Part shown: piece by piece, positions 11,160 to 25,560 of the stretch
Layout: each line of letters opens with the position of its first letter
Numbering within the stretch: position 1 is the first letter of the stretch
NCBI GenBank assembly: GCA_030447595.1
Contig: JAUJON010000004.1
Span: 1 to 58,695, forward strand
Source of the DNA: Thermosynechococcaceae cyanobacterium YX3bin19
Lineage (GTDB): Bacteria > Cyanobacteriota > Cyanobacteriia > Thermosynechococcales > Thermosynechococcaceae
DNA length: 58,695 nucleotides
Direction of reading: 5' to 3'
Program-made: the position numbers and the translations under genes
Notes under the pieces: generated by a model
The model's database searches: none
Told to the model about the DNA's origin: nothing
The model's input: the letters and a program-made list of their open reading frames with translations, nothing else

Positions 11160-11707
11160 TCAGGCATGAAGCAAGTTCTGTTCGTTTACTCGTTTAAAAG
11201 ACAAAACCCTGGGTAATGTAAATAACCCAAGGTCAAATTTCAACCTAAGAAACTAGCCAAGACCTGTAAACGATGACACCTAAGACCGCTCTGATGAAGG
11301 ATTGCGCCTTCCCTCGGTAGCCACGAAATGGAGGAAGCGACAAAAACTCCATACCGCCCAGGTCAAACTAGCCGTTATTCTATTTGCATTTCATCTACAC
11401 TGTCTACACATCTGGCGTCGCTCTCCTTCGATGTATAGCAATGGGCCACAGCGGTATAACACCCAGCCAGTGCATCAATGCTTTCTATACCTATTGAGTT
11501 TACCAGTAGAAAACCTAGTTTTTATCAGCCTTTGGTGAGAAAGAAGACCAGTGTCTAATCAGTCTGTGGGTATAGATTCAGCAAGCTGGTCCCGAACCAA
11601 CTCACAGTTCATTGCGCCTAAACCACTCCCTATGTGCTAAAAATGCTGAAGCCAGTTGAAGCCGAAGCTTGTACCCCTCATTGACCCTACCCAACGAATC
11701 CACCTTG
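11160..11707. other. Intergenic region upstream of the GH116 gene
   Basis: About 550 bp between the GTPase gene and the glycosidase, both on the plus strand. The short frames present do not look like protein (biased composition, no homology recognised). No tRNA cloverleaf or convincing terminator was seen. It should contain the promoter of the GH116 gene. Confidence 0.35.
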
Positions 11708-14686: not shown

Positions 14687-15433
14687 CTAAATGATCGAAG
14701 GAAGCGCTCCCGTAGGAATACCTAGCACCGGACAGGGAAAATCACAGTTCAATTGTTGGACAACTAAATCTGCCGCTGAATAACAGCCTAAACAGAGCAA
14801 AGCCGCTGCTTCTGTCTCAACAATTTTCCTCAGTTCCGTTGCAACTAGTCCGAAGCGGAGATGGGCTTTGAGCGAACCCCGCCATTCATCAGCGAGGCAG
14901 CGAGCTTGCCATAAAATTCTGGTTCGCTCAAATGGGTCACCCTGGAAAAGCTGGGTTTCCCTTTGGAAGAGCTGGGTTTCCGTGGATGGCATTAGCAGGC
15001 TAGCTGTCGAAGCTGAGGGCTGGCAAGTTAAAACAGGTCCACTCGGTCTATTTCCAGGCTGCAGCGACTCTTTGAGTTCTTGATAAGACAGCTGAACGGG
15101 GCTGATACTGGTGAGGCCAAAGCAATCAGGGCTACAGCTACTTTGACTGTTGTCTACAACATAGACAACTTGAACAATCACCTGCTTACGAGTTACTAAC
15201 CGGGTTTGATGGGCAATCCACAAGGTCAAATCTAAGGCAGCATGACTTTTAGGAGAGCCGTTGTAGCCAACTACTAAATTGATAACTTGTTTAGACTGAG
15301 TCCAATCTGTAGGTGTGGTATCTGGACCCGGCAGTAACACCACTTCCTCAGTTAAATCAGGGCAATCCGACGTACCCTGCAGGCGTAGCAACATCGACTT
15401 AATGCTCACAATTTTGCCTCTCAATAGACCCAT
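14687..15433 (-). CDS. Universal-stress-protein-like protein under a c-di-AMP riboswitch
   Basis: 248 aa if read from ATG 15433. After a 50-residue lead, KQVINLVVGYNGSPKSHAALDLTLWIA starts a UspA-like Rossmann fold; the second half (ARCLADEWRGSLKAHLRFG ... AAALLCLGCYSAADLVVQQL) matches the remainder, with an insert of about 60 residues between. The usual G-2x-G-9x-G(S/T) ATP loop is not clear, so nucleotide binding is uncertain. The leader contains a canonical ydaO element at 15535-15655, and the start codon itself falls in a 7-bp hairpin (15427-15451), suggesting translational or transcriptional control by c-di-AMP. An internal ATG at 15394 is an alternative start. Confidence 0.7.
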   Translation of the reverse strand: MGLLRGKIVSIKSMLLRLQGTSDCPDLTEEVVLLPGPDTTPTDWTQSKQVINLVVGYNGSPKSHAALDLTLWIAHQTRLVTRKQVIVQVVYVVDNSQSSCSPDCFGLTSISPVQLSYQELKESLQPGNRPSGPVLTCQPSASTASLLMPSTETQLFQRETQLFQGDPFERTRILWQARCLADEWRGSLKAHLRFGLVATELRKIVETEAAALLCLGCYSAADLVVQQLNCDFPCPVLGIPTGALPSII

Positions 15434-15534: not shown

Positions 15535-15655
15535 TGGGACTCCTTCCAACGCCGACGGAGTTAGCTGACGGGCTAAGACTGGAAGGTGTCTTTCTCATGA
15601 TTGAGATTAGCCCCATTAATTGGTTCCTCCGCTTCAAAACCAGTTGTGCAAGGAT
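15535..15655 (-). ncRNA. c-di-AMP riboswitch (ydaO/yuaA), canonical copy, ahead of USP-like gene
   Basis: Read on the minus strand, the conserved blocks appear in order: GCGGAGGAACCAA, GGGGCTAATCTC, GACACCTTCC, AGCCCGTCAGCTAACTCCG, and GGAAGGAG. These match the ydaO/yuaA (Rfam RF00379 type) core as known from Bacillus and Thermoanaerobacter examples, including the CGGAG/CTCCG and CCTTCC/GGAAGG pairings. This class binds c-di-AMP and usually switches gene expression off. It lies in the ~320-bp gap upstream of the USP-like gene on the same strand. Confidence 0.88.
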
Positions 15656-15753
15656 ACAGTTATCAATACCGGCTTTGGATTAGGCTACCCACTAGTAACC
15701 GCTAAATAATTGTACTGGATTTCTTTGAACGGTATTACAGTTTGTATTTTTTT

Positions 15754-16578
15754 TTAATCAAAATAGTGGTCTAGGAAATTCATTGACTGGTTGCGAAGTT
15801 CCTGATACTCAGGAAGCTCACGCAGTGAAGCGCGATCGGGGTGAGGAAACGGGACCTCTAGTATTTCGCCAATGGTTGCATTAGGACCATTAGTCATCAT
15901 GACAATCCGGTCTGACATATAAAGCGCTTCATCCACGTCGTGAGTAATCATCATCACCGCATGACGATGGTGCTCCCAGATATCTAGTACTTGTTGCTGT
16001 AGTCGACCACGGGTCAGGGCGTCTAAGGCTCCAAAGGGCTCATCCATCAGCAACATCTTCGGCCGGACTGCCAGGGCACGGGCAATTCCTACCCGCTGTT
16101 TCATGCCGCCAGAGAGTTCATCGGGGTACTTATTTGCTGCTTCGGTTAAGTTCACCATTGCTAGGTGTTCATTGACAATCCGTTTTCTGTCACTTGCAGA
16201 GGCATGGATCAGCACTTCATCCACAGCCAGCCGCACGTTCTCGCGCACCGTCAGCCAGGGCAACAACGAGTAGTGTTGAAATACCACCATCCGCTCGGCT
16301 CCAGGCTTGCGGATCTTCCGTCCCTCTAGCTGCACAGAGCCGGAAGTCGCTGGTTCCAGACCGGCCACAATTTTAAGTAGGGTTGACTTACCGCAACCAG
16401 AGTGACCAATGACGGAAATATATTCATCTGCTGCGATAGCCAGATTAATATCTTTGAGAACAACAAACTCACTACCATCCGCAGCAGGATAGGACTTGCT
16501 GAGGTTTTCAATGACGAGGAAATCAGATGAGCTAGACCTTTTAGGGACATTGGTGGAACGTCGGGTAAATTGAGCCAT
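15754..16578 (-). CDS. NrtD/CynD-like ABC transporter ATPase
   Basis: 274 aa. Walker A GHSGCGKST (residues 58-66), the family phrase FQHYSLLPWLTVRENV, signature LSGGMKQRVGIARAL, Walker B LLMDEP and the H-loop ITHDVDEAL are all intact. It is the short, single-domain form (NrtD/CynD type), not the NrtC form with a fused substrate-binding domain. It is the last gene of a permease, binding-protein, ATPase operon. The clade imports nitrate, nitrite, cyanate or bicarbonate; no cynS or nitrate reductase gene is adjacent to decide the substrate. Confidence 0.9.
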   Translation of the reverse strand: MAQFTRRSTNVPKRSSSSDFLVIENLSKSYPAADGSEFVVLKDINLAIAADEYISVIGHSGCGKSTLLKIVAGLEPATSGSVQLEGRKIRKPGAERMVVFQHYSLLPWLTVRENVRLAVDEVLIHASASDRKRIVNEHLAMVNLTEAANKYPDELSGGMKQRVGIARALAVRPKMLLMDEPFGALDALTRGRLQQQVLDIWEHHRHAVMMITHDVDEALYMSDRIVMMTNGPNATIGEILEVPFPHPDRASLRELPEYQELRNQSMNFLDHYFD

Positions 16579-16616
16579 GGTTAACGCCTGTAAAAATAGA
16601 AGATGAAATGCACCAG

Positions 16617-18026
16617 TTAAGACATAAAAAAGCGACTGGGGCGATTTGCCCGGATTTCAAAGCTGTTAAGGTAACCAACTGGATCGCTGGGGTCAAAAGC
16701 CTTGTGGTCAATAAAAACTTCTGCAGGTTCGACGACAAAATCTTCTTTAGGGCATTCAATTCCCATTTCCGCAGCGATTTCTCGATAGAGGCCAGTTCGC
16801 CAGCCTTTACGGGCCAACTCCTCAGCATTTTTGGGAATTTCCGGAATCTGTCCCCAACGTGCTGCTTGCGTCATTAACCAAATACTGTGAGACTGCCGGA
16901 GAAACGTGGAGTGGTTACCAGGTTCTTTGGCAAGATCAGGTGGCAAATCAAAGAAAATTGTGGTTTCCAGCGCCTTAGAGATGCGATCTTTACCATCAAA
17001 TCCCCCATAGTTGTATTCACCCACAATTGCTGGCCGGGTTAACTGGGGTTTTGCCCCAGTAAAAGATTTAGCTGCAATGATTTTGGCAACCTCTTCCCGG
17101 TTTTCTGGTTTACTGCAGTACTGGCAGGCTTCAATCATGGCTTTAACCAGAGAACGATAGGTTTTAGGGTTCTCATTGATGAAAGATTCCATCACCCCTA
17201 ATAGGCGATCCGGGTGCCCACGCCAGATTTCTCTGCCTTGGGCAAACGTAAAACCAATGCCCTCATTACCGCTGATAGCCCGTGTATTCCACGGTTCTGC
17301 CACCATGTAAGCTTGCATAGCGCCAATTCGCATATTGGTTACCATCTGAGGTGGCGGGATAATAATGACCCGGAACTCTTTAATCGGATCAACTCCAGCC
17401 GCAGCAGATAAGTAGCGCACAAAGTATTCATAGATAGCGGAGCTGAGGACGACAGCCCAGATACGCTGCTCAGATGGGAGTCCATCAAAATAACGTCGGA
17501 AGTCGCGGCCAAACGCCTCTAGATCTCCGTTGTACTCTCGCCAGGGACGCAGACCGGCCTCCCACATCGCCCGGTTCATCGTCATAGCGTTACCGTGGCG
17601 GTGGATGGTCATTGCTGCACACAGAGGGGCATGGGGAGCTCCCTCTGCGCCTGCACGAGCATTCGTAACCGAACCGGAGACAACTGGAGAAGCATCTAGG
17701 CGGCCAAAAATGATGCCATCGCGAGAGGTGGCCCAACTCGCTTCCCGACTGAGCTTGACGTTCAGGCCGTACTTGCGGAAAAACCCTTTCTCCCAGGCGA
17801 TCGCAAAGGGAGCACAGTCATTTACCGGCACATATCCAACGATAAGATTGGGCTTCTCCAAGGTCTTAGGGTTAACGACAGGCTCCACTGCCAGAGCAGC
17901 CTCAGATAGTTCTTTAGGGGCCTTACTCGTATTGATCGCACAGGAAGAGAGGGCAATCCCAGCGGCTGTCCCTCCCAGCCCTTGAAGAAAAGTACGGCGG
18001 GTGTAACGTTGTGAAGCGTTGCTCAT
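16617..18026 (-). CDS. NrtA/CmpA-like Tat-exported substrate-binding lipoprotein
   Basis: 469 aa. The N-terminus has a twin-arginine motif (YTRRTFLQGLGG) followed by a hydrophobic core and a lipobox LSSC, so it is predicted to be exported folded and lipid-anchored. The mature domain matches the NrtA/CmpA/SsuA-like periplasmic family (LIVGYVPVNDCAPFAIAWEKGFF ... ASWATSRDGIIFGRLDAS ... AYMVAEPWNTRAI). Length is close to NrtA. Residues fixing nitrate against bicarbonate or cyanate specificity cannot be assigned by eye; the loop after GRLDAS differs from typical NrtA. It lies between the permease and ATPase genes. Confidence 0.9.
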   Translation of the reverse strand: MSNASQRYTRRTFLQGLGGTAAGIALSSCAINTSKAPKELSEAALAVEPVVNPKTLEKPNLIVGYVPVNDCAPFAIAWEKGFFRKYGLNVKLSREASWATSRDGIIFGRLDASPVVSGSVTNARAGAEGAPHAPLCAAMTIHRHGNAMTMNRAMWEAGLRPWREYNGDLEAFGRDFRRYFDGLPSEQRIWAVVLSSAIYEYFVRYLSAAAGVDPIKEFRVIIIPPPQMVTNMRIGAMQAYMVAEPWNTRAISGNEGIGFTFAQGREIWRGHPDRLLGVMESFINENPKTYRSLVKAMIEACQYCSKPENREEVAKIIAAKSFTGAKPQLTRPAIVGEYNYGGFDGKDRISKALETTIFFDLPPDLAKEPGNHSTFLRQSHSIWLMTQAARWGQIPEIPKNAEELARKGWRTGLYREIAAEMGIECPKEDFVVEPAEVFIDHKAFDPSDPVGYLNSFEIRANRPSRFFMS

Positions 18027-18146
18027 GGATTTATCCCACTTAAACTCTTATAGCTAGACTCTCGAAGTCAGCCAATTTTCCTCGCCTTGTTGGACAGAAG
18101 CATAAAATCCCTACTGGCTAGCTCGTTAAGCTTGAAGAGATTAGGG

Positions 18147-19001
18147 TTAGACCTTGATGGAGCGGGCTGGCCGGTGCGTGACCCACTCTTGAACTTTACC
18201 GACAGCGTAGTCCAGCACCAGCCCCGTCAGGCCAATCACAAAAATAGCTAGGAAAACAGAACTCAAGTTGAGGCGGCTCCATTCATCCCAAACAAAAAAG
18301 CCAATGCCAACGCCACCCGTTAACATTTCTACTGCCACAATTACAAGCCAGGCAATCCCTAGGCTAATTCGTAAGCCCGTAAAGATATAGGGTAAACTGG
18401 CAGGCCAGATAACTTTGGTGATTTGACGCCAGCGAGGCATTTCTAGCACTCGTGCCACGTCTAAGTAGTCCTGGGAGACACTGGAAACACCTAGGGCTGT
18501 ATTAATGATCGTGGGCCACAAAGACGTAATAAAGATGACAAAAATTGCTGAAGGGTCTGCCAAGTTGAAGATTGCCAGCGCGACGGGAAGCCACGCTAGT
18601 GGAGATACAGGTTTAAATATCTGGACGAGCGGGTTGAGTATCATCAGAGCTTTTCTGGACATGCCAATCAGGAACCCAACTGGAATTGCCACCAGTGCAC
18701 CCAGTAAAAACCCAATCAACACCCGGCGAATACTTGATAAGAGCAACCAGCCAATTCCCAGGTCCCCCGGCCCCCGCCGATAGAACGGGTGGAGAATATA
18801 GTCTAAGTTCTCTCCCAGTGCTTGCATCGGAGTTGGCATCAGTTCGGTAAAAAACGTTGCAACAATCCACCACAGCAAGACAACGCCGATAAATCCAAGT
18901 GCAGGAAGTAAGACAGTATCCCTAATCAGGATAGGTCGGGCACGCTTCCAGGTTGCCTGTCCAGCCACAGCAATTATGTTAAGACTTGACCTATATGCCA
19001 T
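18147..19001 (-). CDS. NrtB-like ABC transporter permease
   Basis: 284 aa with about six membrane helices. The binding-protein-dependent transport motif is present as LDVARVLEMPRWRQITKVIWPASLPYIFTGLRISLGIAWL (EAA loop region, here read in two overlapping parts). The family is NrtB/CynB/SsuC-like. It is the first gene of the operon, ahead of the binding protein, which differs from the binding-protein-first order of classical nrtABCD and cynABD. Its leader holds a degenerate c-di-AMP riboswitch at about 19100-19245. Confidence 0.9.
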   Translation of the reverse strand: MAYRSSLNIIAVAGQATWKRARPILIRDTVLLPALGFIGVVLLWWIVATFFTELMPTPMQALGENLDYILHPFYRRGPGDLGIGWLLLSSIRRVLIGFLLGALVAIPVGFLIGMSRKALMILNPLVQIFKPVSPLAWLPVALAIFNLADPSAIFVIFITSLWPTIINTALGVSSVSQDYLDVARVLEMPRWRQITKVIWPASLPYIFTGLRISLGIAWLVIVAVEMLTGGVGIGFFVWDEWSRLNLSSVFLAIFVIGLTGLVLDYAVGKVQEWVTHRPARSIKV

Positions 19002-19099
19002 TTCAATTTCCTCAGAATCTACTTAGGTACAGCAAAAGAAGCTGTAGCGAAACAGCTGAGGAGACCGATGAAATCAGAACACTAAAAAACGTTAGATCT

Positions 19100-19245
19100 T
19101 CAGTCTCCTCTCAACACCAACGCAGTTAGCTAACGGGCTAGGGCTGAGGGATACCCTTCTCTACTTCTCTGCTAACCATAGATAAAGCTAGAAAGAAGCC
19201 CCAAAACCTGATTCTCCCACTCCAGCTGCACCTCCAGGCCAGGAT
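19100..19245 (-). ncRNA. Degenerate c-di-AMP riboswitch ahead of NrtABD-like operon
   Basis: The minus strand carries AGCCCGTTAGCTAACTGCG and GAGAGGAGACTGAAG, which clearly derive from the ydaO element upstream of the GT4 gene (both share GTAGAGAAGG and GAGAGGAGACTGAAG). However, the ligand-core blocks have changed: GCGGAGGAACC reads GTGGGAGAATC, the GGGGCTTATC block reads GGGGCTTCTT, and CTCCG reads CTGCG, so the CGGAG/CTCCG pairing is lost. It is either a dead relict or has altered ligand binding. Confidence 0.7.
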
Positions 19246-19908: not shown

Positions 19909-21204
19909 TTAAGTTGTAAGAATTTCAAGCGGCTGGCTGGACTTCTGAGGTATTGAAGTGTTTTGGGAAAGAAGCTGGGCATAAAGCTCACTTAATCTCG
20001 CAGCAACGCCAGTCCAGCTAAACATTGCTTTTACCCGACGTCGCCCCAGCTCACCCAGATGATCCCGCCAGGCGGGAAGAGCCAAAATCCGGTCAATGGC
20101 TGTCGCAAAGGCAACTTCATCTTGAGGCGGCACCAAAAATCCGGTTACCCCTGGCACAACGGTATACCGGAGCCCTCCCACCTGACTTGCTACAACCGGA
20201 GTACGACTTGCCATCGCCTCAATTGCAACTAAACCAAATGGCTCGTAGTGACTGGGTACGACACAGACATCAGCCGCAGCGTAGTAGAGCGGTAAATCTG
20301 CATGCTCAATTCGGCCTGGAAAAGTTGTCAGATCAGCCAGATCTAAATCTGCGACAAGCTGTTCAATTCGCTCTCGCTCAATGCCATCGCTCTTGCCGGG
20401 ACGACTGCCACCGCCAATAATTAGCCTTAAGTCATCTCCCCTCCGCCCTCGGTGCTCAGACAGGGCAACGGCTCGCACTAAAGTTTCAATTCCCTTCCGT
20501 TGATCAAAGCGACCGACGTAGAAAACAACTTTTGTCTCTGGGGCAATCCCTAGCTGTTGCCGTGCTGCTAACCGGCGCACGGTACCAAATTGCTCGATAT
20601 CAGTACCACAGGGAATCATCTCAATTGCACCCTGGCTAGAAACTAGGGTTCGCATATGCTCTGCTTCTTGCGGGCTGGTTGCTACAATACGCTCCGCCGT
20701 TTCTAAGCAAGCTTTTTCAACAGCCAGTCGCTTCGTTGCAATGATTGGAACATCCGGAACAGTCTGATACTTAACAGCTCCCAGTGAATGATAAGTATGC
20801 ACCTGAACCAGGGGTTGGCGCTGCTTAAGCTCCATTCCCACCCAAGCGGACAGCCAGTAGTTGGTGTGAACTAAAGGATATTGGCAGCCCTCTCGCTGCT
20901 GGAAGTCCTGGAAGGCACAAACAAATTCTGGTAGATGCTCGAAAAGCTGATTGCGAGGCATAAATTCCAATGGTCCTGCTTCTAGCCGAATCGTTCGACA
21001 GCAGGGGTTATGTTGAACGATGGTAGGCTGCTCAACACTACTGCGGCGAGTGAACATATCAACCTGCCAGCCTAGATTAGCGAGTGCTTCACCCACTTGC
21101 CGGACGTAGACATTCTGACCACCTGCTTCCTCTTGACCAATGGCAATAGCAGGGTCCCCATCTATAGAAATTAGGGCAATCCGGTTCTCTGGAGTTACAA
21201 ACAT
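19909..21204 (-). CDS. GT4-family glycosyltransferase (SPS/MshA-like) under a c-di-AMP riboswitch
   Basis: 431 aa GT-B enzyme. The N-terminal EEAGGQNVYVRQVGEALA loop is the donor/acceptor glycine-rich loop of the sucrose-phosphate-synthase/MshA-like branch. VVFYVGRFDQRKGIETL and the E-x7-E motif in HYEPFGLVAIEAMASRTPVV mark the C-terminal nucleotide-sugar domain. The acceptor is unknown; compatible-solute synthesis (sucrose-type) is possible and would suit c-di-AMP control, but the sucrose-phosphatase domain is absent and this is inference. A GAGG ribosome site lies 13 nt before the ATG. A canonical ydaO riboswitch sits at 21357-21500 in its leader. Confidence 0.88.
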   Translation of the reverse strand: MFVTPENRIALISIDGDPAIAIGQEEAGGQNVYVRQVGEALANLGWQVDMFTRRSSVEQPTIVQHNPCCRTIRLEAGPLEFMPRNQLFEHLPEFVCAFQDFQQREGCQYPLVHTNYWLSAWVGMELKQRQPLVQVHTYHSLGAVKYQTVPDVPIIATKRLAVEKACLETAERIVATSPQEAEHMRTLVSSQGAIEMIPCGTDIEQFGTVRRLAARQQLGIAPETKVVFYVGRFDQRKGIETLVRAVALSEHRGRRGDDLRLIIGGGSRPGKSDGIERERIEQLVADLDLADLTTFPGRIEHADLPLYYAAADVCVVPSHYEPFGLVAIEAMASRTPVVASQVGGLRYTVVPGVTGFLVPPQDEVAFATAIDRILALPAWRDHLGELGRRRVKAMFSWTGVAARLSELYAQLLSQNTSIPQKSSQPLEILTT

Positions 21205-21356: not shown

Positions 21357-21500
21357 CTTCAGTCTCCTCTCAATGCCGACGGAGTTAGCTGACGGGCTAG
21401 GACTGAGAGATGTCCTTCTCTACTTAATCTCCCCACAAACGGAATGGAGACGTCAGTTAGAGATAAGCCCCACAAATTGGTTCCTCCGCTCCAGCTCTAC
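21357..21500 (-). ncRNA. c-di-AMP riboswitch (ydaO/yuaA), canonical copy, ahead of GT4 gene
   Basis: On the minus strand the blocks GCGGAGGAACCAA, GGGGCTTATCTC, GACATCTCTCAGTCC, AGCCCGTCAGCTAACTCCG and GAGAGGAG occur in the right order and spacing for the ydaO class; CGGAG/CTCCG pairing is preserved. Downstream, ACCATT and AATGGT (around 21335-21354) can form a short hairpin followed by TTTGATC, a possible expression platform. The next gene on this strand is the glycosyltransferase, about 150 nt further on. Confidence 0.88.
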
Positions 21501-21664
21501 CTTAAAAGGGAGTAATACTGGATTAGGCTGACTTATATTTTTGTTTCCAAATATCCTAGCAGCAGACTTTGAATTCAGCAAATACCTCTTAAGGTATACA
21601 ACTTTAGCGAGCAACTCAGCCCTCGTCTTTCAAAGTGCTTGGGGAAAGCATAAGAGTCATGGCT

Positions 21665-22066
21665 TTAACCTTGCCTAGCTTTACGCTCCTTTAGCTTCAA
21701 CAAGATTCTGGCATGGACCTCGCGGGTAATAGGATAGAAGTAGGCTAGGACAATTCCAGCAATTAGCACTAAGGTTGGCAAAGGACCAATTGCTAGGCGG
21801 ATTGCCAAGAGCGCCGACGGGGGTTGAATCGGCGCTGTGCGATCGCTTAGTACCCCAACGATAGGATCGTTTACCGCATCCCAAATCTTGCCAATCAGCA
21901 AAATCGTACCCGCCAGCCCTGCATTTAAGCCCGCCACACTGGTGAAAAAGAACAGCAGGAAAAAGGCCATGACGTTTGCAGTGATTGCAGGCCCTAAATC
22001 TCCGGCTCCGTAAGCCAACTTGGTACTGAAGCTCAGTTTTTTAGCAGCAGGCGGTGATTCAGTCAT
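21665..22066 (-). pseudogene. GPH/MelB-type sugar symporter with large in-frame internal deletion
   Basis: The 133-residue frame from ATG 22066 starts exactly like a full sodium:sugar symporter (STKLAYGAGDLGPAITANV ... GKIWDAVNDPIVGVLSDRT) and then jumps to the C-terminal end of the same family (PPSALLAIRLAIGPLPTL ... AYFYPITREVHARI). The normal protein is about 450-500 aa with 12 helices, so roughly 1 kb is missing. The junction coincides with an inverted repeat, AGCGCCGA (21810-21817) and TCGGCGCT (21829-21836). It cannot transport as it stands. It follows xseB on the same strand. Confidence 0.85.
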
Positions 22067-22148
22067 GGCAATGCAATCATACAGGGACTCTGTGATTGTC
22101 CCTCTCTTGGTGCAATCATTCCCTACTGTTGTAAAAAAACTCTGCTTT

Positions 22149-22412
22149 TTAAAAAGTCGAATCGTCTGCCAGACTCTCAATCAGCAGCTCCACCTGTTGC
22201 TGTCGTTGCCTGAGGAATGCTTCACAGTGACGCAAATGCTCAACCGCGGCGGCAAACTGGTCAAATACTGCCGCTAAATCCAATTCACCAGCCTCAATTT
22301 CCGCAATCATGGCTTCCACTTCCGCCACGGCTGCTTCATAATTCCACTCTGGGGGGAGGCTGAGGGAGGCGGGAGTAAACTCTTGACTATTTCCCTCACT
22401 TGCACTCATCAA
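22149..22412 (-). CDS. xseB: Exodeoxyribonuclease VII small subunit
   Basis: 87 aa. [24 protein letters not shown] followed by [18 protein letters not shown] is the XseB helical-hairpin signature. The subunit caps XseA in the nuclease complex that degrades single-stranded DNA. The start overlaps the xseA stop by 4 bp, indicating translational coupling. A second ATG directly follows the first. Confidence 0.93.
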
Positions 22413-23716
22413 TCTACTTTAGTTGTACCAGTATTATCGAGGATTTCCGTTACCTTGACTTTGATACGACCCTCACTCAGTTGAATCGTCAGATCCTGCT
22501 CAAGGCGAAGGGTATTGGACGAGCGAACAATATTATCATTATTCTGGCGCACCACAGCGTAACCCCGTTTGAGCACAGCCTGCGGATCAAGGGCTACGAG
22601 TTTCTCGGCAAGAAACTGCTGTTTTAGCAGGGCCTGCTGCACTCGACCTTGAGTCACTTGGCTCAACTGTTGCTGTAACCGAGCGAGCGCCCCTTGTTCC
22701 TGTTCGAGTTGTCGATTGAGTTGCAGCCGCTGCAGCCGCAGTTTTAGTTGCTGGAGTTGAGCCTGGACAGTTTCCAAATGCTGGCTCATGGCAACCTGGA
22801 GGGCTGCCACGCGCTCCTGATGTTCCTCCCAAAGCTGCATGAACAGCGGTACGACCTGTGCGGCAGCAGCAGTGGGGGTGTGCGCACAGGCATCAGCTAC
22901 CAGATCGGCGAGGGATTCGTCCCGCTGGTGACCAATCCCACTAATCACCGGCATCGAGCACTCCGCGATCGCTCGCACCACGCGCTCGTCATTAAAGCAG
23001 GCGAGGTCTTCTGTGGCTCCCCCGCCTCGCGCCAGGATCAGGACTTCAGCGCGACCGTCCCGTTCCACGCGCTGCATCGCTGTCACAATCGACTCAGGGG
23101 CTTGCTCCCCCTGAACGATAGCCGGAGAAAAGAGCACCTGCAGTCCGGGATAGCGCTGCTTTAAGGTGCGTTGGATGTCTCCCCAGGCAGCAGCCTGGGC
23201 AGAAGTGACTACGGCAATCGTTTGCGGATGGGGAGGCAGGGCTCGCTTGCGCTCCCCGTCAAACAATCCTTCTGCTTCTAGGCGATCGCGAAGCTGGCGA
23301 TAGCGGAGTGCCCGTAAGCCTTCCCCCGCTGGTAAAGTTTGCCAAACCATCAACTGGTACTGCCCCCGCTGGGGATACAGTCGCAGGCGGCCCAGTACAA
23401 TTACTTTTTCCCCGGTTGCGGGCAGTTGTGCGAGTGCCTTTAGTTGAGCGCTCCAAACCACGCAGCTAATTGCTGCTGAAGCATCTGGATCTTGCAAGGT
23501 AAAGAAGAGACCGCTGCAATGGGCCTGGGTGCTGGTCACCTCACCCGTGACCCAAACCTGCGTCAGTTGTTCGTCGTACTCCAGCAGAGTTTGGATGTAG
23601 TTGGTTAATCCTGCTACTGATAAAACAGTTGTGGAGGTGAAGCGATCGCTGAGGTTAGTAGACCTCTTGCGTGAATCAGGAAGAGAGCGCAAGTTCGAAG
23701 TTGATAATTGCAGCAA
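22409..23716 (-). CDS. xseA: Exodeoxyribonuclease VII large subunit, copy A with IS-derived start
   Basis: The protein from [21 protein letters not shown] to the end is a complete XseA: an OB-fold (VWVTGEVTS...), the catalytic tudor-like region ([50 protein letters not shown]) and the C-terminal coiled coil and tail. The native ATG is gone: homology with copy B stops at about 23658, where the IS5-type element begins, and the frame continues into the IS, giving a TTG start at 23716 and an extra 19 residues ([19 protein letters not shown]). Expression would rely on IS sequence. It is coupled to xseB, so this is the copy likely to be functional. Confidence 0.88.
22653..23658. repeat. Duplicated xseA segment, copy A
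   Basis: About 1 kb that matches 24557-25557 closely, with scattered substitutions and small indels. It covers xseA from codon 2 to the Ser-Gln-Val-Thr codons in the C-terminal coiled coil. Both outer ends of the shared segment meet the IS5-type element in one copy or the other, which defines the duplication unit. Confidence 0.9.
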
Positions 23717-24556
23717 TCAAATTGAACCGCAAGCCAAAGCGCCTACGCCGGTTCCGATAACGCTCACTCAATATCCGAAATATCTTCAACTTGCGGTTGA
23801 CATGCTCAGCTACTACTCGCAATCGTGCTAAGTTTCGGTTGTGCTGCCGCTCCCCTTTGTCTAGCTGACACTTGCGCCGCTTCTTGGTTGGAGTACAACT
23901 GCTGGGATGGAGCTTGACAATGCCCTGATAACCTTTGTCCGCTAAACACAACTGCTCTGGTAGCAGCGGGACTCGATGCACCTTGAACAAGCCAAAGTCA
24001 TGGACGCGGCCTTTACTAAAGGCAGTGCAGATGATCGACTTGATTGACCACTACTTGTGCTTTTAAGGTGTGCCGCCTTTTCGCCACTATAGTAGCCTCG
24101 TTGGTTTTTTTGGGGCGCTCAATTCGGTGACGACGACCAGCACACTAGTCCATCAGCAACTTTTCAACCTTATAATCAATCGACGACCGCAAACAAAGCT
24201 GCTTTTGCTGCCAGAGTCCATCAGCAACTTTTCAACCTTTTGAATCAATCGACACACTGCTGACTCACTCAATCCCCAACTGGTAGCAATGTGGAACTGA
24301 GTGCGATATTCCCGCCAGTATTCGAGTACCAAGAGCAATTGGTCTTCGACGCTTAGTTTGCATTGTCCACCGCGTTTGCCACTCCGGTCGAGATGAGGCT
24401 GAAGGGTCTGCACCATCTGCTCAAAGGTTTCAGGGTGAACACCGCACCTGCGTTTGAAAGCACCGGACTTTAGATGTTTGAGTTGTTTGTAGGTCATAGG
24501 TGTTTCCTCCTTGACCCACTTGTACTTGCCCTTACACTATTCATGCAAGAGATCTA
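23659..24556 (-). mobile_element. IS5-family-like insertion sequence, degenerate
   Basis: About 0.9 kb bounded by imperfect terminal inverted repeats: TAGACCTCTTGCGTGAAT at the left and the complement of ATTCATGCAAGAGATCTA at the right. It contains a broken transposase on the minus strand. Its left flank is xseA codon 2 and its right flank is the middle of xseA, so the flanks are from two different target sites. An internal tandem duplication of about 67 bp (24147 and 24214) adds to the decay. Confidence 0.85.
23676..24497 (-). pseudogene. IS5-type transposase, broken into fragments
   Basis: The N-terminal frame (24497-24153) begins MTYKQLKHLKSGAFKRRCG and has the helix-turn-helix TSWGLSESAVCRLIQKVEKLL of cyanobacterial IS5-like transposases. 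The C-terminal frame (23990-23676) has LCLADKGYQGI, PTKKRRKCQLDKGERQHNR and RVVAEHVNRKLKIFRIL of the DDE_Tnp_4 fold. Between them the frame is lost around 23990-24153, including a 67-bp duplication, so the catalytic core is incomplete. Not expected to be active. Confidence 0.85.
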
Positions 24557-25560
24557 GTCACTTGGCTCAACTGTTGCTGTAACCGAGCGAGCGCCCCTTG
24601 TTCCTGATCGATTTGTCGATTGAATTGCAGCCGCTGCAGCCGCAGTTTTAGTTGCTGGAGTTGAGCCTGGGCAGTTTCCAAATGCTGGCTCATGGCAAAC
24701 TGGAGGGCTGCCAGGCGCTCCTGATGTTCCTCCCAAAGCTGCATGAACAGCGGTACGACCTGTGCGGCAGCAGCAGTGGGAGTGTGCGCACAGGCATCCG
24801 CTACCAGATCGGCGAGGGATTCGTCCCGCTGGTGACCAATCCCACTAATCACCGGCATCGAGCACTCCGCAATCGCTCGCACCACGCGCTCGTCATTGAA
24901 GCAGGCGAGGTCTTCTGTAGCTCCCCCGCCCCGCGCTAGAATCAGGACTTCAGCGCGACCGTCCCGTTCCACGCGCTGCATCGCTGTCACAATCGACTCA
25001 GGGGCTTGCTCCCCCTGAACGATAGCCGGAGAAAAGAGCACCTGCAGTCCGGGATAACGCTGCTTCAAGGTCCGTTGGATGTCTCCCCAGGCAGCAGCCT
25101 GGGCAGAGGTAACTACGGCAATCGTTTGCGGATGGGGAGGCAGGGCTCGCTTGCGCTCCACGTCAAACAATCCTTCTGCTTCTAGGCGATCGCGAAGCTG
25201 GCGATAGCGGAGTGCCCGTAAGCCTTCCCCCGCTGGTAAAGTCTGCCAAACCATCAACTGGTACTGCCCCCGCTGGGGATACAGTCGCAGGCGGCCCAGT
25301 ACAATTACTTGTTCTCCGGTTGCGGGCAGTTGTGCGAGTGCTTTTAGTTGAGCGCTCCAAACCACGCAGCTAATCGCTGCTGGGGCATCTGGGTCTTGCA
25401 AGGTAAAGAACAGGCCGCTGCGATGGGACTGGGTGCTGGTCACCTCGCCAGTGACCCAAACCTGCATCAGTTGTTCGTCGTACTCCAGCAGAGTTTGGAT
25501 GTAGCTGGTTAATCCTGCCACTGATAAGACTGTTGTGGGGTGAAGCCACTGAGGTTAGTC
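24541..25560 (-). pseudogene. xseA: xseA copy B, 3'-truncated by the IS and frameshifted at its start
   Basis: This copy keeps the native 5' context (ATG at complement of 25558-25560, reading MTNLSG, directly after the GST gene) but has a single-base deletion near 25527 (ACCTCC in copy A, ACCCC here) that takes the native start out of frame. A GTG at 25521 could restart translation. At the other end it stops after LSQVT, where IS sequence adds RSLA and a stop, removing the last third of the coiled coil and the C-terminus. It is probably nonfunctional. Confidence 0.88.
24557..25557. repeat. Duplicated xseA segment, copy B
   Basis: Partner of 22653-23658. The copies differ by scattered substitutions (for example TTCGAGTTG against ATCGATTTG near the coiled coil) and the small 5' indels, so the duplication is not brand new. 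Confidence 0.9.

Follow-up and report, generated by a model that had tools for sequence, protein, structure and literature searches.

A degenerate c-di-AMP riboswitch in front of an NrtB/A/D-like transporter operon in a cyanobacterium of the Thermosynechococcaceae

RESULTS

The transporter operon and the three riboswitch copies

The DNA analysed here, referred to as the window, is a contig of 58.7 kb (C422) from a genome assembly of 3.87 Mb, which is 74% complete and comprises 446 contigs. An operon for an NrtABD-like ABC transporter was found at 15754–19001 on the minus strand. The first gene encodes an NrtB-like permease (18147–19001, –; TIGR01183, 233 bits over cut-off), followed by the genes of an NrtA/CmpA-like substrate-binding protein (16617–18026, –; NMT1_2, PF13379) and an NrtD-like ATP-binding protein (15754–16578, –; TIGR01184, over cut-off). 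The nearest relative in our genome set was G008, 'uncultured Synechococcales cyanobacterium AVDCRST_MAG81' (locus L060). Comparison with this genome showed that the operon genes were under purifying selection, with dN/dS values of 0.04–0.07 (∼0.07 for the permease and ∼0.04 for the binding protein). The permease shares its strand with an upstream GT4 glycosyltransferase gene (19909–21204), the two being separated by a pentapeptide-repeat gene, and the gene of a Usp-like protein is located at 14687–15433.

The GT4 and Usp genes each lie downstream of an intact ydaO/yuaA c-di-AMP riboswitch (RF00379). The GT4 copy (21359–21539, –) scored 72.4 bits and showed no departure at 52 near-invariant columns, as defined below; the Usp copy (15535–15660, –) scored 66.8 bits, and its departures were confined to the P6/pseudoknot-loop block and the tail. 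Every ligand-core column was kept in both, which provided a local control. In the pseudoknot of the Usp copy, CCUUCC/GGAAGG replaces UCUCUC/GAGAGG, a compensatory change observed in the window and in L060 (near 8430).

The original prediction had placed a third, diverged ydaO copy at 19100–19245, ahead of the transporter operon. This was borne out: the segment 19100–19250 (–) matched RF00379 over its full length (model 1–134) with 24.3 bits, and the E value was 0.0013 when 451 bases were searched and 0.0026 when the genome was searched. The curated gathering score of the family is 38 bits, so that the third copy falls below the score of at least 38 bits expected of a functional member. It was the lowest RF00379 match among 146 cyanobacterial genomes, in which only one other match was below the cut-off (36.0 bits, in G148). 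The latter sits before a permease of a type that is also preceded by a riboswitch in L061. Riboswitches before ion permeases of one type were seen in two cyanobacteria (L061:2738–2871 and L190:2820–2951), the copy in G148 being weak. These permeases are perhaps of the slr0753 type, which in Synechocystis is a reported riboswitch target (PMC10117731).

Several other features of the window were observed. A CyVA-1 RNA (RF02965) with 82.6 bits is located at 11397–11473 (–). A GPH/MFS_2 symporter gene at 21665–22180 (–) carries an internal deletion with its ends joined in frame, leaving ∼133 aa of the 473 aa in the AVDCRST_MAG81 orthologue (L060:1632–3053). Two near-identical xseA-like frames (22409–23716 and 24541–25521; region 22409–25521, –) flank transposase-like fragments (23676–24497), which suggests a duplication or insertion event.

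Orthology of the third copy

The 80 closest relatives of the NrtB-like permease were taken as the orthologous loci. A search for the same copy in relatives, as the original prediction had proposed, revealed the exact core CCCGTCAGCTAAC in 78 of these 80 loci, at no more than 420 nt from the permease on its upstream side; of the remaining two, L110 reads Ns at this place and L060 is the AVDCRST_MAG81 locus. In 13 sampled orthologous loci the riboswitch was found at that place with RF00379 scores of 53.6–80.2 bits. The distance of the third copy to the permease and its downstream leader were as in the orthologues (leader alignment A1). This equal distance and the homologous leader indicated orthology of the third copy with the ancient riboswitch of the operon; its position before an orthologous permease and its conserved platform helix (row L030, with one pair gained) agreed with descent from it. 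Among cyanobacteria, the riboswitch before the NrtABD-like transporter is old and broadly distributed, and it often has a Usp copy and sometimes a GT4 copy as a neighbour.

The third copy had been regarded as a paralogue of the GT4 copy on account of a shared flank. This did not hold, because the flank (UUGAGAGGAGACUGAAG) is the usual tail of cyanobacterial copies in general, and the third copy was identical to the GT4 copy at 80/99 positions versus up to 81/99 for transporter copies of other orders. A recent duplication of the GT4 copy was therefore rejected. The presence of three copies close together had also been called unusual, but at least two copies were found in 41 of the 73 orthologous loci with a length of at least 8.5 kb, and in L107 (LEGE 11386) all three occur, each before the counterpart of its gene in the window (GT4, nrtB-like and Usp), the GT4 gene being divergent there. 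Rather than being recent duplicates, the GT4 and Usp copies are old and separate, and each has a gene partner of its own.

Damage to the ligand core

The third copy was compared with 84 orthologous copies, among which 52 aligned columns were conserved to at least 97% and were regarded as near-invariant; ligand-core positions were judged by this conservation among orthologues. The third copy departed at seven of the 52 columns and kept 45 (∼87%). Among the 84 orthologues, 74 had no departure and six had one, and the most divergent had five. The seven departures were 19219 C>T, 19215 G>A, 19211 C>T, 19195 A>C, 19149 T>C, 19132 C>T and 19116 C>T. Six of them fall in the ligand-core blocks or the adjoining P1 strand. 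Four are located in the 5′ core segment (19195–19219, –; columns A5, A9, A13 and C7 for 19219, 19215, 19211 and 19195), which also carries a change at the less conserved position 19216 (A>G). The 3′ core segment (19116–19132, –) is changed at 19132 (GUCAGC to GUUAGC), 19123 and 19116.

As had been predicted, the ligand-core blocks were indeed altered. Bases that are invariant among members (GCGGAGGAACC, GGGGC..A, GUCAGCUAAC and UAAUC) were not all present: changes were seen at the conserved A in GGGGC..A, at the C in GUCAGC and in the UAAUC block on the 5′ side. The A at 19195 and the C at 19132 are unpaired core bases that were fixed in 84/84 orthologues. When the register is chosen to preserve P1, the 5′ block is UGGAG, and the register that keeps AAUC loses P1, so that UAAUC and P1 were jointly kept in neither register tried.

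The predicted damage to the CGGAG/CTCCG helix (P3 in the Rfam layout) was real as well. GCGGAG/CUCCGU in intact copies has become GUGGGA/CUGCGU. Of the six pairs, the two that involve 19215 and 19123 are broken, and G.U pairs make up three of the four that are left; the damage is made worse by the changes at 19216 and 19123, which are less conserved positions. The compensatory-change analysis suggested in the original prediction yielded no compensatory pair for the two broken pairs of this helix. Folding of the isolated aptamer was of no use as a test of P3, since even the intact GT4 copy reached only 0.03 without ligand and pseudoknot. Several changes in the third copy convert C-G or A-U pairs to U.G or G.U instead of breaking them; counted by hand, ∼5/7 of the changes at paired positions were wobble-compatible, an excess that was not significant.

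The 3′ part was well kept, as had been noted, matching the GT4 copy at 58/71 positions. The pseudoknot between the P6 loop and the 3′ tail, which belongs to the solved crystal structure (PMC5393176), retained six of its seven pairs (alignment A1): one pair was lost in the loop strand AUCCCUCA (19145–19152, –) through 19149 T>C, and the tail strand UGAGAGG (19107–19113, –) was intact. Taken together, decay of the aptamer in the third copy is well supported.

The expression platform

Across 49 aligned leaders, pairing is possible between the aptamer tail GGAGACUGAAGAG and a downstream strand CUCAUCAGUGUCC. Standard pairs made up 82.7% of the cells of this helix versus at most 47% for slid versions. 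Four pairs changed on both sides, a number reached by 4/500 shuffles, and 14 such cells were counted, a number reached by 0/500. The corresponding hairpin in the window (19058–19110, –), formed by the aptamer tail GAGAGGAGACUGAAGAUC with ...UCAUCGGUCUCCUC, has a predicted fold of –40.4 kcal/mol; its helix was fully retained and one pair was gained (G59-C115, alignment A1). The tail strand pairs alternatively with the aptamer loop in the ligand-binding pseudoknot.

A putative anti-RBS strand, UCCUCAG (19056–19062, –), is common to the platform hairpin and to a pairing with the ribosome-binding site of the permease, CUGAGGA (19009–19015, –), to which it is complementary at 7/7 positions. The anti-RBS pairing was better than in shuffled sequences at p ≤ 0.05 in 25 of the 49 rows, the window among them; since this was so in 25 rows and the RBS register differs between orders, the support for this pairing was regarded as only moderate. 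The RBS of the window was predicted to be unpaired with a value of 0.43 when the tail was free and 0.01 when the tail was blocked. In 72 orthologue leaders, mean predicted RBS accessibility fell from 0.37 to 0.20 upon blocking of the tail, with a clear drop in 40 and a rise in seven. In the whole-leader fold of the window, the RBS paired with a 5′ segment, which made the open state of the RBS uncertain.

Binding of c-di-AMP lowers expression in this riboswitch family via termination or translation, and one c-di-AMP riboswitch is reported to act on translation (PMC9960051). The natural reading of the folding models is that the platform may act as a translational OFF switch, in which the ligand would keep the tail in the pseudoknot and the anti-RBS strand would be free to cover the RBS.

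Loss of the aptamer in the nearest relative

The permease of AVDCRST_MAG81 is directly preceded, on its own strand, by the GT4 gene with an intact riboswitch, and the sequence between the two genes yielded no aptamer. Comparison of this intergenic region with the leader of L069 revealed a platform remnant of 42 columns, CAGC...TTGATCTTC-TCAGAATCCTTGGCT, with a local score of 33 versus at most 28 in 200 dinucleotide shuffles. This remnant implied that the ancestor had a riboswitch and that the sister genome lost the aptamer. A long near-perfect hairpin (CAATTAGGCTCAGCTA...TAGCTAAGCCTAATTG) with no T run after it was observed at the former aptamer site in the gap between the two genes (L060:4850–4893). 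Two genomes of the same family, G012 and G014, keep the transporter riboswitch; their GT4 gene is on another contig.

Synonymous differences between the window and AVDCRST_MAG81 were near saturation (pS of 0.62–0.71). Nonetheless, 45 of the 52 near-invariant positions were kept, far more than expected of a sequence free of constraint for that long. Unhindered drift of the element after its divergence from the sister genus was therefore rejected, and as a rough estimate the decay in the window is either recent or part of the element is still constrained. The same retention suggested that the aptamer losses in the two lineages were likely independent.

DISCUSSION

The third copy occupies the position of the ancient riboswitch of the transporter operon; its decay was found in no other searched genome, and in the sister genome the aptamer is gone but part of the platform persists. 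We consider it probable (roughly 0.7) that the element is a relict of a c-di-AMP riboswitch that once controlled the NrtB/A/D-like operon, and that sensing was lost, leaving the platform in a ligand-free form and the operon independent of c-di-AMP. Decay of the ligand core and of the CGGAG/CTCCG helix would have abolished the response to c-di-AMP. The surviving platform would then be held in the ligand-free state, with the aptamer tail paired to the anti-RBS strand; the permease RBS would be more open and the operon presumably constitutively ON. With sensing lost and the platform left in this state, the operon would be deaf to c-di-AMP. The loss might have been tolerated since the GT4 gene with its intact riboswitch is now upstream on the same strand. 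Judging from two genomes, the window and AVDCRST_MAG81, the arrival of the GT4 gene may have made the internal switch of the transporter dispensable.

A wholly dead sequence, in which aptamer and platform are both functionless and the 3′ part has been kept through recent decay alone, shares the dead aptamer with the relict reading and differs from it only on the platform. The decayed form is carried by one sequence in one genome, the aptamer and most of the leader are gone in the sister, and the difference between the halves was modest (private changes at 4/28 positions in the 5′ half versus 5/71 in the 3′ half), all of which would suit a dead element. Nevertheless, the fully retained platform helix with its gained pair and the RBS/anti-RBS complementarity, which is still 7/7, speak against it, and we regard it as a possible but less convincing account.

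It is unlikely that the third copy is a weakened but working riboswitch, responding possibly at higher c-di-AMP. The persistence of P4, P5, P6, the platform and six of the seven pseudoknot pairs would allow for such a switch, as would the wobble-compatible nature of many core changes and the near-invariant positions kept in the face of near-saturated synonymous sites. However, the unpaired bases at 19195 and 19132, which no orthologue lacks, were changed, UAAUC is lost when the register preserves P1, the central helix has two broken pairs, and the aptamer is gone from the sister genome.

The original prediction had left the choice between a relict and an altered ligand sensor. The changed fixed positions, the unique core and the loss in the sister genome favoured the relict, and an altered sensor found no support. 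It seems very improbable that the changed core was selected, whether the ydaO scaffold and platform serve another nucleotide or a leader fixed in the ON state; if the latter were true, the retained 3′ half would be needed for keeping the RBS open. Still less credible is a shift of the core to another nucleotide with architecture and platform kept. The changes do sit in the ligand core, with the 3′ half and the platform preserved, and rare variants of known riboswitch classes have switched ligand before, as from SAM-I to spermidine (PMC10853860). Known variant classes, however, recur with shared changes and move their gene association, so that the same core changes would be expected across several genomes. 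Two patterns were searched in 390 cyanobacterial genomes. The pattern CCCGTTAGCTAACNNCGNNGG was found only in the genome of the window itself, and GTGGGAGAATCA followed by GGGG was found there and in three other places, which equals the number in the reversed control. The altered core thus recurred in no other of the 390 genomes, leaving a variant-ligand class unsupported; in addition, the downstream operon is ancestral and the broken pairs are uncompensated.

An assembly or sequencing artefact, which the fragmented genome (74% complete) and the truncated MFS gene and duplicated xseA on the same contig might suggest, can be dismissed as most improbable, because the third copy differs by numerous isolated substitutions, transitions for the most part, which are confined to a single element flanked by intact genes on a contig of 58.7 kb, and the neighbouring riboswitch copies are clean.

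The element thus appears to be a riboswitch caught mid-decay, with selection still acting on its target operon. Intact sister copies within a few kilobases serve as internal controls and a near relative shows complete loss, which makes this natural riboswitch loss of moderate interest; the candidate translation-control platform is open to direct testing. No report of this decayed copy was found in our literature searches. The riboswitch class itself is already known, and as a new kind of sensor the element is ordinary.

The closest known counterparts are the intact RF00379 copies before cyanobacterial NrtB-like permeases, with which the third copy shares position, orientation, block order, pseudoknot tail, platform and operon. 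It differs from them in its sub-threshold score, in the change of bases that are invariant in 84 orthologues and in its partly unpaired central helix. The GT4 and Usp copies of the window are like the third copy in family, neighbourhood and strand, but their ligand-core columns are kept. The c-di-AMP riboswitch of Corynebacterium glutamicum nlpC (PMC9960051) is of the same class and acts on translation, and the anti-RBS pairing found here, without a terminator, suggests likewise; that riboswitch is functional and actinobacterial, and the likeness is one of class and suggested control mode. The spermidine variants of SAM-I (PMC10853860) resemble the third copy in carrying ligand-core changes in a known aptamer, but those variants are shared by several genomes and have acquired a new gene association. 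Neither is true of the third copy, which keeps its place in front of the ancestral transporter operon.
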